A DNA stretch of 64,000 nt from Streptacidiphilus pinicola (GTDB taxonomy: Bacteria > Actinomycetota > Actinomycetes > Streptomycetales > Streptomycetaceae): contig NZ_QKYN01000082.1 of NCBI RefSeq assembly GCF_003258295.1, positions 1 to 64,000 on the forward strand, in the 5' to 3' direction. Position 1 is the stretch's first letter, and every line of letters starts with the position of its first letter. Of the stretch, positions 15,494 to 18,741 are shown piece by piece. The notes under the pieces are model-generated. The model was not told where the DNA came from, made no database searches, and worked only from the letters and a program-made list of their open reading frames with translations. Both the position numbers and the translations under genes were made by a program.

Positions 15494-17317
15494 CTAGCCT
15501 TCGTCCATCCCTGCCAGCACGAGTGCCAGCCGGTCCGTACCGCCGTCGGTGACGCGGACCGGCACGCCCCAGTCCTGCTGGTGCACATGGCAGGTCGGGA
15601 ACTCGATCGCCGGATCCGCGTCGCAGGACGCGGCCATGGCGGAGACGTGCAGGACGCCCTCGGTCACGTCCGGGTTCAGCGTCAGCGCGCGTCGCAGCGC
15701 GGTGTCCGGACCGGCGCCCTCCAGGATCAGCTCCGGCGGCGTGGAGCTGACCAGCAGTCGGGTGGCCGGGCCGTAGGTCTCGTCCAGCTTCTGCCCGGCC
15801 GGCGGGGTGAAGACGACGTCCAGCGCGAGCGTGCCGCCCGCGATCTCGGTCGCCGGCCGTTGCGTCCGGTGCGCGGCGGCCTCCACCTGCACCGCCTCCT
15901 CGGGCAGCCGCAGCCGGGTCAGCCGGTGCCGGGCGGACTCGACCACCACGATCTCGTCCCCGTCCACGACCGCGCCCGACGGCTCGCGCAGATCCGTGGC
16001 GAGCGTGCTGACCTGGCCCGTCCCCGGGTCGAACCGGCGCAGCGCGTGGTTGTACGTGTCCGCGATCGCCACCGAGCCGTCGGGCAGCACGGTCACCCCG
16101 AGCGGGTGCTGCAGCAGCGCCTGCGTGGCATCGCCGTCCCGGTGCCCGAAGTCGAACAGCCCCGTCCCGACGGCGGTGCGCACCTCGTGCGTCCCGGCCT
16201 CGACGAACCGGACGGCGGACGTCTCGGAGTCCGCGACCCAGAGCCGGCTCCCGTCGGCGGCGGTCGCCAGCCCCGACGGCTGCGCGAACCACGCCTCGGC
16301 GGCGGGCCCGTCGACCAGCCCCTCGTTCGTCGTCCCGGCCTCCACCTGGACCGTCCCGGCCTCCGGGTCGAAGCTCCACAGCTGGTGCGTCCCGGCCATC
16401 GCGATCCACACCCGGCCGTCGAACCAGGCGACGTCCCACGGCGAGGACAGGTCCACCTCCCGCGCGGGACCGCTGGTCGCGGAGTTCTGCCACCACTGCC
16501 GGCCGGTGCCCGCGAGCGTCGTGACCTCGCCGGTCGCCAGGTTCACCCCGCGCAGCGCGTGGTTGACCGTGTCCGCCACGACGACGTCGTACGGCCGGCC
16601 GTCGACCAGCGCGACGCCCTGCGGTTCGCTGAACCGCGCGTCCTCGGCCTTCCCGTCCGCGAACCCGCGCTCACCACCGCCGATCCGCCGCACCACGGTC
16701 TCCCCGTCGGCGGCCAGCTCGACCAGGCTGTGGTGCCCGGAGTCCGCCACCAGGAACCCGCCACCGGGCAGCCGCACGGCCTTCCCGGGGAACTTGAGCG
16801 CCCCGGGCGCCGCCTTCGGCGCCACGTACGGCCCGTCCCCGCGCCGCAGCGTCCCCTTGGCCCCGTGCTCCGCCTCCAGCTCCTCCACCAGCGCGGCGAT
16901 CGCGTGCGCGTGCCCCTCCCCGGCGTGCTGCGCGACCACGTACCCCTCGGGATCGACCACTACCAGCGTCGGCCACGCCCGCACCGCGTACTGCTTCCAG
17001 GTCGCGAGCTCGGGATCGTCCAGCACCGGGTGCTCCACCTCGTACCGCGCCACGGCGTCCACCACGGCCTGGTGCTCGGCCTCGTGCACGAACTTCGGCG
17101 AGTGCACCCCGATGATCACCAACGTCTCCCGGTGCGCCTCCTCGAGCTCCCTGAGCTCGTCGAGGACGTGCAGACAGTTGATGCAGCAGAAGGTCCAGAA
17201 ATCGAGCAGAACGATCTTTCCCCGCAGATCCGCGAGGGTCAGATCCTTGCCGCCGGTGTTGAGCCAGCCACCCTTACCGACCAGCTCGGGGGCGCGAACG
17301 CGTGCACGTGATGCCAT
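15494..17317 (-). CDS. Thioredoxin-like/NHL-repeat protein (NHLRC2-like)
   Basis: A 607-residue protein with a TlpA/thioredoxin-type domain (about 10-160), active-site pair C45-I-N-C48 in the segment WTFCCINCLH, then a beta-propeller of NHL-type repeats (about 170-490) and a C-terminal beta domain. The order matches human NHLRC2 and its bacterial relatives. There is no signal peptide, so it is probably cytoplasmic; the reaction is unknown. ATG 17317 is used; the upstream sequence GGATGCAGGT is a weak ribosome site. The first 22 bases of the gene and its ribosome site recur at 18081-18112 on the other side of a VapBC module, where the copy has the better GGAGGCAGGG. The module appears to have landed at this gene's start. 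Confidence 0.85.
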   Translation of the reverse strand: MASRARVRAPELVGKGGWLNTGGKDLTLADLRGKIVLLDFWTFCCINCLHVLDELRELEEAHRETLVIIGVHSPKFVHEAEHQAVVDAVARYEVEHPVLDDPELATWKQYAVRAWPTLVVVDPEGYVVAQHAGEGHAHAIAALVEELEAEHGAKGTLRRGDGPYVAPKAAPGALKFPGKAVRLPGGGFLVADSGHHSLVELAADGETVVRRIGGGERGFADGKAEDARFSEPQGVALVDGRPYDVVVADTVNHALRGVNLATGEVTTLAGTGRQWWQNSATSGPAREVDLSSPWDVAWFDGRVWIAMAGTHQLWSFDPEAGTVQVEAGTTNEGLVDGPAAEAWFAQPSGLATAADGSRLWVADSETSAVRFVEAGTHEVRTAVGTGLFDFGHRDGDATQALLQHPLGVTVLPDGSVAIADTYNHALRRFDPGTGQVSTLATDLREPSGAVVDGDEIVVVESARHRLTRLRLPEEAVQVEAAAHRTQRPATEIAGGTLALDVVFTPPAGQKLDETYGPATRLLVSSTPPELILEGAGPDTALRRALTLNPDVTEGVLHVSAMAASCDADPAIEFPTCHVHQQDWGVPVRVTDGGTDRLALVLAGMDEG

Positions 17318-17327
17318 ACCTGCATCC
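17296..17327 (-). repeat. Direct repeat copy A (start of the thioredoxin-NHL gene)
   Basis: A 32-base segment matching 18081-18112 at 29 of 32 positions in the same orientation. It covers the ribosome site, start codon and first seven codons (MASRARV) of the thioredoxin-NHL gene. The two copies bracket the VapBC module. Confidence 0.85.
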
Positions 17328-17389
17328 AACCGCATCGGGCTGTGGGCGCATTCCACGCGCAGCTGCGGCCGCCGGGGCGGCTCCTGTAT

Positions 17390-17395
17390 TACGGT
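17390..17395 (+). promoter_or_regulatory. Candidate -10 (TACGGT) for vapBC-1
   Basis: TACGGT is followed by six bases and the antitoxin ATG at 17402. A GGA three bases from the ATG is too close to act as a ribosome site. Confidence 0.45.
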
Positions 17396-17401
17396 TGGAA
17401 T

Positions 17402-17680
17402 ATGGGCGACAAGGCCAAGCTGAGCATCAGCATCGACGAGGAGCTCAGCGCCACACTTCGCGCCGTCGCAGCGCAACGACAACAGCAGATCTCGACGGTC
17501 GTCACGCATGCGTTGGTCGACTACTTCGCCAACGAGCAGCGGAGGCTCGACGGCCTTGCTGCGATGGCGGAATACCAGCATGAGCACGGTGCCTTCACGG
17601 CCGAGGAACGCCGGGAGGCCGCGGAGCGAGTGGACGAGCTGATGGGCTGGTTGCCCAAGTCCGGGCGGCCGAGCGCGTGA
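17402..17680 (+). CDS. Ribbon-helix-helix antitoxin, VapB-like
   Basis: A 92-residue protein. The N-terminal strand K-L-S-I-S-I-D followed by two helices (E-E-L-S-A-T-L-R-A-V-A and the following helix to about 45) is a classic MetJ/CopG DNA-binding fold. The C-terminal half is charged, as expected for a toxin-wrapping tail. The stop overlaps the toxin start by four bases (GTGA), ensuring coupled translation. It should repress its own operon and neutralise the VapC-like toxin. The ATG at 17402 follows a TANNNT hexamer by six bases. The module is bracketed by a 32-bp direct repeat, a sign of insertion. Confidence 0.85.
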   Translation: MGDKAKLSISIDEELSATLRAVAAQRQQQISTVVTHALVDYFANEQRRLDGLAAMAEYQHEHGAFTAEERREAAERVDELMGWLPKSGRPSA

Positions 17681-18066
17681 ACGCGATCGTGTACGACACC
17701 GGAGCCTTGATCGCCGCGGAGAGGAACGACCGGGCTTTCGTGGCCCAGCACGAGACGTTGCTCGTCGCGCGGGTCCGACCGTTGGTGCCCGCGGGCGTGC
17801 TGGCCCAGGCGTGGAACACGCGTCCCGCGGCGGCCGTTCTGCACCGGGTCCTTCGAGGTTGTGAAGTTCTGACCCTCACGGAGGAGCGGGCGAAGGCCGC
17901 AGCCGAGCTGTGTCGGCGCGCGGGTAGCTACGACGTGGTGGACGCGAGCGTCGTTCTGGCGGCGATCGAGCACCTCGATGCGCCCATCCTGACGGATGAC
18001 CTCGGGGATATCGAGAAGCTGGTTGAGGCTTCCGGACGCTCGCGGATCAAGGTCGCTCGCCCGTAG
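17677..18066 (+). CDS. PIN-domain toxin, VapC-like
   Basis: A 129-residue PIN domain, a metal-dependent RNase. Acidic residues seen are D7 (Y-D-T-G), D86/D89 (Y-D-V-V-D-A-S-V) and D107/D108 (L-T-D-D). The second canonical acid, a Glu about residue 40-45 in most VapC proteins, appears to be Gln44 in V-L-A-Q-A-W; E15 might substitute. This belongs to a divergent PIN group seen in actinobacteria, so activity is likely but not certain. GTG 17677 overlaps the antitoxin stop. The stop lies 14 bases before copy B of the flanking repeat. Confidence 0.82.
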   Translation: MNAIVYDTGALIAAERNDRAFVAQHETLLVARVRPLVPAGVLAQAWNTRPAAAVLHRVLRGCEVLTLTEERAKAAAELCRRAGSYDVVDASVVLAAIEHLDAPILTDDLGDIEKLVEASGRSRIKVARP

Positions 18067-18080
18067 TCGACTCAGCGTCA

Positions 18081-18112
18081 GAACGCGTGCGCGTGATGCC
18101 ATCCCTGCCTCC
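18081..18112 (-). repeat. Direct repeat copy B (relic start of the thioredoxin-NHL gene)
   Basis: It matches 17296-17327 at 29 of 32 bases. On the minus strand it has GGAGGCAGGG, then ATG and codons for MASRARV, after which the frame reads unrelated sequence. It is therefore an orphan gene start with a better ribosome site than the working copy. Confidence 0.85.
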
Positions 18113-18149: not shown

Positions 18150-18155
18150 GATAAT
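18150..18155 (+). promoter_or_regulatory. Candidate -10 (GATAAT) for the GNAT gene
   Basis: GATAAT is followed by seven bases and a GTG at 18163; this favours a leaderless GTG start over the ATG at 18154, which lies inside the hexamer. Confidence 0.4.
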
Positions 18156-18162
18156 GCGCGGC

Positions 18163-18741
18163 GTGCCCACACTTGTCGCGCCGACGGTGCCGTACGGTTC
18201 CCTCGCTTCGCGGGAGCAGCCCGTTCTTCCGGCCGGTGACGGCCTGCTGCTGAGGCCCTGGGCGGTCGACGACGCGCCCGCGGTGCTGGCGGCCTACCAG
18301 GATCCGGGGGTGCGGCGGTGGCACGCGCGGGGGATGGACTCCGTCGCGGAGGCCGAGGAGCAGCTCGACGCGTGGCGGGCCGGTTGGGCCGCCGAGCGGG
18401 AGGTGGGGTGGGCGGTGGTCGACGCCGTAGGCGGTGAGCTGTTGGGCCGCGCCGGGCTGAAGCTGCTGAACTTCGACGACGGCACGGCCCACGTCGCGTA
18501 CTGGACCGTGCCGGCCGCGCGTGGCCGGGGCGTCGCTCCGCGCGCCGTGGCGGCGATGACCGCCTGGGCCTTCGACGCGGCGGGCTTCCAACGGCTCGAG
18601 CTCGGGCACGCGGTGGCCAACACCGGCTCCTGCCGGGTCGCCGAGAAGACCGGGTTCGTGCTGGAGGGCGTCCGCCGCAGCGTCTGGCAACTCGATGACG
18701 GCCGGCACGACGCGCATCTCCACGCGCGTCTGCGGCCCTGA
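18163..18741 (+). CDS. GNAT family N-acetyltransferase, RimJ-like
   Basis: A 192-residue acetyltransferase. The acetyl-CoA loop is visible as V-P-A-A-R-G-R-G-V-A-P-R-A around 121-133, followed by the helix and the V-A-N-T-G-S-C-R-V-A-E-K-T-G-F segment typical of the RimJ/RimL group that acetylates protein N-termini or small amines. The substrate is unknown. The GTG at 18163 gives MPTLVAPTVPYG; an ATG nine bases upstream is possible. It is followed 29 bases later by a secreted protein gene on the same strand that has its own strong ribosome site. Confidence 0.82.
   Translation: MPTLVAPTVPYGSLASREQPVLPAGDGLLLRPWAVDDAPAVLAAYQDPGVRRWHARGMDSVAEAEEQLDAWRAGWAAEREVGWAVVDAVGGELLGRAGLKLLNFDDGTAHVAYWTVPAARGRGVAPRAVAAMTAWAFDAAGFQRLELGHAVANTGSCRVAEKTGFVLEGVRRSVWQLDDGRHDAHLHARLRP

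Follow-up and report, generated by a model that had tools for sequence, protein, structure and literature searches.

A recurrent integration site with rebuilt gene starts in Streptomycetaceae, and a possible eroded vapBC insertion in Streptacidiphilus pinicola

Introduction

Several large serine integrases of actinophages integrate inside coding genes. AICEs that carry serine integrases and lie in coding genes have also been described: in the main text of Ghinet et al. (2011; PMC3218068), 19 of 144 AICEs carry serine recombinases, and some of these elements lie in protein-coding genes. That main text mentions neither thioredoxin nor NHL, and a literature search combining serine integrase, attB, thioredoxin and Streptomyces found no paper. 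The use of a thioredoxin-NHL gene as integration target, a rebuilt 5′ end and compact toxin-gene inserts were likewise not found in the literature searched.

We analysed a chromosomal stretch of 64,000 nucleotides from Streptacidiphilus pinicola (the window), for which an initial annotation, made from the letters alone, had described a vapBC toxin-antitoxin module bracketed by a 32-bp direct repeat of a neighbouring gene's start. It had proposed that the module inserted at the 5′ end of this gene, in the manner of elements integrating at attachment sites, and regenerated the gene start.

Results

The two copies of the repeat, at positions 17296–17327 (inner) and 18081–18112 (outer), both read on the minus strand, are, as first described, identical at 29 of 32 bases in the same orientation; they are offset by 785 bp. 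Each corresponds to −10 to +22 of a gene whose predicted product is thioredoxin-like and has NHL repeats (15497–17317, minus strand; Pfam NHL, 9.6e-30; Thioredoxin_8, 8.8e-13), which confirms that the repeat spans the gene start. The next-best ungapped 32-mer match within the 64-kb window reached 21/32, and the 22-base coding part of the repeat, with at most three mismatches allowed, was found at two sites only in the whole 8,432,874-base (8.43-Mb) genome; a chance origin of the repeat was therefore rejected. The 32-mer ends abruptly on both sides: extending the anchored match outward and inward did no better than shuffles (fractions 0.385 and 1.0), and a gapped local alignment stretched it weakly to −29, with 11/19 identities in the added part.

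The thioredoxin-NHL gene is intact and carries native codons (RGKIVLLDFW in the motif table). Its codons 39–41, GATTTCTGG (17195–17203, minus strand), form the putative integrase crossover region, at which the gene-start remnants of relatives described below cease to match in a base-by-base comparison; they are absent from the outer copy. The region upstream of the gene (17318–17354, minus strand) contains GGTTGGAT and GGAATGC blocks (by eye) that are conserved in relatives, and the outer copy keeps none of it beyond −10. Because the outer copy has the ATGGCATCACG...GTTC codons of the subgroup to which the window belongs, it is not ancient. As a separate observation, GGTTGGAT lies 7–14 bases ahead of the ATG in the window and in most relatives compared, and from this position the gene may be leaderless, with transcription starting near the ATG.

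Between the copies lies the toxin-antitoxin pair, as annotated, on the plus strand: the antitoxin gene vapB (17402–17680, 92 aa) and the predicted PIN-domain toxin gene vapC (17677–18066, 129 aa). A GNAT acetyltransferase gene, recognized by Pfam and by comparison (18154–18741, plus strand), starts 41 bp past the outer copy. Using the integrase, RepSA and TraSA proteins of the Streptacidiphilus melanogenes NBRC 103184 element described below (genome G005) as queries, we obtained no match in the window at an E value of 1 or better; the locus thus showed no AICE replication or transfer gene, and the module contains no integrase, as had been noted. The outer ATG had been said to lead nowhere. It does open a long frame antisense to vapBC, apparently a shadow frame such as GC-rich DNA gives.

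The PIN match of VapC scored 23.3 bits, just below the Pfam cut-off of 23.6, and that of the antitoxin to CcdA was weak and sub-threshold (19.4 against 22.4); neither protein had an NCBIfam match at 0.01. Residues D7, D89 and D107 of VapC were invariant in the five sequences aligned, and we take the catalytic acidic residues to be among them. Close relatives of vapC in the family sample were found in S. melanogenes (88% identity), G110 (84%) and Kitasatospora sp. GAS204B (G188, 84%; its genus is meant wherever Kitasatospora is named here), the next relative being at 58%. S. melanogenes is the only one of 13 other Streptacidiphilus genomes with a close vapC. A scan of named genomes gave Streptomyces relatives at 57–59%, plus weaker ones, and in all four Streptomyces loci at 57–59% the thioredoxin-NHL gene was absent from the stretch examined.

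VapBC or a relic of it lies beside the same gene, or beside its remnant, in several genomes. In G110 (Kitasatospora), vapBC is divergent from a native thioredoxin-NHL gene across an 83-bp spacer (84 bp in the window), with no outer copy; the middle of the spacer matches that of the window at 10/31 by count and is not recognizably shared. The full vapBC of S. melanogenes lies outside a remnant of the gene start, a vapC relic in G134 lies about 55 bases outside a native remnant, and a relic in G026 adjoins the gene itself; the vapBC of G188 is elsewhere in its genome. These positions in G110, G005, G134 and G026 indicate that, in at least some lineages, vapBC has long adjoined the native gene, and that in G005 and G134 elements inserted between gene and vapBC. 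The initial annotation had named a module accompanied by a single repeat as refuting its reading, and this is seen in G110, with a native start and no outer copy, and in G005, with vapBC beyond the remnant. No hidden remnant beyond vapBC rose above shuffles (as good or better in 154/200 for G110, 80/200 for G005 and 99/200 for G026). The vapBC tree splits the two genera, with support of 88/93, below the tool's mark for strong support, and in 96% of bootstraps. Third-codon divergence of vapBC was considered as proof of horizontal arrival and dropped, saturation and a faster rate being sufficient and the tree following genus.

Other toxin-like neighbours of the thioredoxin-NHL gene were seen besides vapBC and the Fic genes described below: a pair of MazF/PemK-like toxin and RHH-like antitoxin genes lies directly upstream of it in G188 (L212:694–1255), and a DUF6247 gene lies outside the remnant in G009 (L035:4893–5243).

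A whole-protein search of 61 genomes found N-terminal fragments (aa 1 to 42–47) upstream of an intact gene in G005, G007, G009 and G012, and a second N-terminal copy is present in 5 of 14 Streptacidiphilus genomes (these four and G010). Across Streptomycetaceae, the N terminus was matched in 332 of 394 genomes. A remnant of it adjoins the gene in 31 of the 332 (5 + 18 + 8), drawn from a pool of 67 genomes with at least two N-terminal hits (hand count) and including a pair on two contigs (G174), a decayed copy (G010) and two weak ones of 53–55% identity (G214 and G103). In a later round, 44 two-hit genomes were inspected, and in eight a copy adjoins the gene on its upstream side; we took the remaining 36 second hits for paralogs, these being 46–61% identical, located elsewhere or, in G324, downstream.

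One of these loci is that of S. melanogenes, where an insert of 17 kb (L031:2125–19233) lies inside the thioredoxin-NHL gene, between gene and remnant. It encodes a 513-aa serine integrase (Resolvase and Recombinase domains), a RepSA initiator (PF20199, 6.4e-152), an FtsK/SpoIIIE-type protein and a GntR regulator; one further gene is NUDIX-like by eye. A replication initiator, an FtsK-type transfer protein and an integrase are thus all present between attachment-site copies (Pfam), and by this gene content the element is an AICE, with transfer predicted. Its RepSA and TraSA were unmatched in all other integrase or remnant loci compared.

Among the matches listed, with three candidates per genome scored so that fragments may be missing, relatives of its integrase with at least 55% identity over at least 170 aa occur in 28 of 394 genomes, G005 included. 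Among the same matches, 27 of the 28 lie at most 3 kb from the gene or at most 50 bp from its remnant; the exception is G385, in which the N terminus of the gene was not found. Where a locus has both integrase and remnant (18 loci), they are 34–46 bp apart. No integrase was detected in the stretch examined of 11 of the 31 remnant loci (G007, G009, G010, G012, G182, G210, G220, G086, G168, G214 and G103), which are in this respect like the window, and the remnant loci form an erosion series from a whole integrase through broken or partial ones (G407, G288, G091, G234) to none.

In 13 loci compared base by base, old start and working gene agree up to GACTTCTGG (codons 39–41, GAC TTC TGG; one base off in G009) and then diverge, so that the remnants part from the gene at about +123, ~100 bp inside it. 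WTFCCINC, a thioredoxin-type motif by eye, begins with the Trp of this stretch. From the match until codons 39–41 and the divergence thereafter it follows that the element supplies a promoter and codons 1–41 and leaves the former start outside. We conclude that elements have repeatedly integrated at the 5′ end of the thioredoxin-NHL gene and rebuilt its start, and that a clade of predicted large serine integrases is linked to the breakpoint at codons 39–41. The initially proposed insertion with regeneration of the gene start therefore holds for this gene in relatives, as seen at the 31 remnant loci. It differs in its details, the breakpoint near +123 being part of what the window's outer copy lacks, and the window gene has none of the codons of regenerated genes.

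These codons are distinctive. In the 18 loci with complete integrase and remnant, the working gene reads RGKCVV (15 loci) or RGRTLI, RGRLVV or RGRILV (three loci), and the motif of the remnant, visible in 17 of them, is always unlike that of its own working gene. RGKCVV and the RGR... variants are thus, by comparison of the sequences, a putative attP-derived footprint of insertion. In G003, G019 and G026 the gene has RGKCVV or RGKCVI and a remnant was not found within the stretch examined. Among 20 Kitasatospora genomes picked because the N terminus matched once, G170 alone has RGKCVV and two (G172 and G178) proved to contain partial copies. At one locus (G297, L185) the remnant itself reads RGKCVV and the gene carries another footprint, which suggests two successive integrations.

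In G012, G182 and G210 (L033, L204, L205), remnant and gene are identical at 121–123 of 123 bases but differ further upstream; gene conversion between the repeats is the best reading. This near-identity also suggests that an insertion footprint can be erased. The native RGKIVLLDFW of the window gene, without the signature of regenerated genes, gives insertion no support, yet is compatible with one.

An empty site, with one 32-mer directly upstream of the gene, had been expected in related genomes; with the acetyltransferase gene as marker, no such site, at which the two genes would be adjacent, was found in 14 genomes of Streptacidiphilus. In G010 a relative of the acetyltransferase (77%) lies outside the decayed remnant, and in G009 a relative (68%) is sited elsewhere. 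VapBC is inside none of the 18 inserts with integrase and remnant, and we discarded the idea that it is regular cargo of intact elements.

The nearest parallel to the window is given by a different toxin-like gene. Fic, identified by Pfam in G168 and by similarity to G168 in the other loci, is found between gene and start remnant in four Kitasatospora genomes (G168, G086, G182, G214), with ATG-to-ATG distances of 1325–1379 bp in two length classes (about 1325 and 1377–1379 bp; those of G086 and G214 are estimated from partial remnants). In the Kitasatospora genomes G074 and G107 Fic adjoins the gene, and no remnant was seen within 0.6–0.7 kb beyond Fic. In G178, Fic is cut at aa 179 and bracketed by a copy that matches +1 to +26 of the gene start with zero mismatches and is random upstream of the start (10/30). 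No integrase was detected in the Fic-bracketed loci (L209, L208, L204, L210 and L223, the last with the short copy and half a Fic gene). The short copy in G178 is best read as what a deletion left of a longer remnant. Genes beside the target can thus arrive along with a new gene start.

Discussion

We favour the reading that the window locus is an eroded insertion of a captured vapBC pair and gene start over a local 32-bp duplication, and give it a probability of roughly 0.55. The pair and a replacement gene start would have been captured from a host in which vapBC was already the divergent neighbour of the gene, and the captured unit would have been joined to the gene body at codons 39–41. 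The displaced original start, left outside the insert, would be the source of the outer 32-mer. Later deletions would have taken away what else remained of the old start, together with the crossover and any integrase, so that +22 now abuts a position 14 bp downstream of vapC. This requires erosion on both sides, because the crossover and the promoter part are both missing from the outer copy.

The window shares with the serine-integrase insertions an outer start remnant in the same orientation, limited to −10 to +22. Unlike theirs, this remnant does not reach codons 39–41, no integrase adjoins it, and the gene lacks the RGKCVV or RGR... codons. As the outer match stops at +22, the locus is filed as a possible eroded product and not as an intact member, and an outer copy with no breakpoint and no integrase left makes it at most an eroded remnant. 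Because the Fic series is the nearest parallel and G178 shows the same short start-only pattern, we favour insertion and infer that the window underwent it, capture and erosion included. Against this stand the absence of vapBC from all 18 complete elements, the missing footprint, the lack of an integrase relic and of an empty site among the genomes compared, the vapBC–gene arrangement of G110 with no outer copy, and a grouping of vapBC by genus that fits a resident neighbour. If insertion holds, the window vapBC would be a toxin-antitoxin pair of ordinary kind that points away from the gene, with predicted activity.

The last two objections belong to a serious rival, which we nonetheless rate as somewhat unlikely. 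Here vapBC would be a resident neighbour and the outer 32-mer a separate local event, in which a repair junction separating vapC from the acetyltransferase gene received a short piece of the gene start. Template switching, end joining that used filler DNA, or a tandem duplication that deletion subsequently shortened would account for it. The divergent layout of G110 with its nearly equal spacer (83 against 84 bp), the vapBC tree that follows genus, the native window gene and the sharpness of both 32-mer edges all agree with such an event. It requires, however, the chance copying of exactly the one nearby gene start that yields copies otherwise, and the middle of the spacer is not recognizably shared with G110 (10/31). 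Moreover, since G005 alone among the 13 other Streptacidiphilus genomes has a close vapC, a resident vapBC demands many losses.

Homology-facilitated illegitimate recombination appears improbable. A strain without vapBC would have taken up a relative's gene–vapBC fragment, anchored it by homology in the gene and joined it illegitimately, beyond vapC, to its own start, with no integrase involved. The same layout, the native gene, the junction at +22 and the linkage of vapBC to the gene in relatives are consistent with this, but it also predicts that the former promoter persists upstream of −10, and that part is missing. Least probable, and rejected as the main reading although it comes nearest to the initial annotation, is that the 32-mer is the true attachment core of a different integrase, such as a tyrosine integrase, using the gene start: start-only copies of similar extent do occur in two genomes (the window and G178) and the stretch contains the palindromes CGTGCACG and ACGCGT (by eye), but the G178 copy runs into mid-Fic as a deletion would give and unlike an attachment site, the outer upstream flanks are unlike the gene's usual upstream region, and the other remnants compared reach the region of codons 39–41, ending near +123, or are partial on the start side.

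Extending the insertion reading of the window, compact toxin cassettes (vapBC, Fic) with a captured gene 5′ end might move as small non-autonomous units into this one gene, served in trans by site-specific serine integrases that other elements encode. Such traffic would make the gene a docking site common to toxin-like genes, small islands and AICEs, which would displace one another, and every insertion would exchange the promoter and the first 41 codons. We regard this generalization as tentative and rather doubtful.

More widely, the results point to one conserved gene at which mobile elements have docked repeatedly in Streptomycetaceae. The codon footprint makes past insertions readable and the target site of a serine integrase clade predictable, and such integrases could serve as tools in these antibiotic producers. 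By itself the window locus is a small, worn and modest example; it adds the possibility that insertion carries along, or leaves stranded, toxin-antitoxin genes that adjoin the target.

Compared with known systems, the window pair has the small antitoxin gene overlapping a predicted PIN-domain toxin gene of VapBC type II modules, and differs in its profile matches just under the Pfam cut-offs and in having no NCBIfam match at 0.01; its activity is predicted. The Fic loci (G168, G086, G182, G214, G178) are like the window in being compact, with a toxin-like gene between gene and start copy and no integrase detected. They differ in that the gene is Fic and not vapBC, that it is co-directional with the thioredoxin-NHL gene, and that longer remnants persist in four of the five loci, in two of these in decayed form. 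The S. melanogenes integrase has the same Resolvase and Recombinase layout as the large serine integrases of actinophages (phiC31, phiBT1, phiJoe); it is about 30% identical to its best-ranked matches among 50,697 phage records, and all matching phage and plasmid records stay below 60% identity. Like the pSAM2-type AICEs as described in the main text of PMC3218068, the S. melanogenes element combines RepSA, an FtsK/SpoIIIE-type protein, a GntR regulator and a serine integrase. It differs from those described there in its site, which lies inside the 5′ end of a gene whose start is rebuilt.
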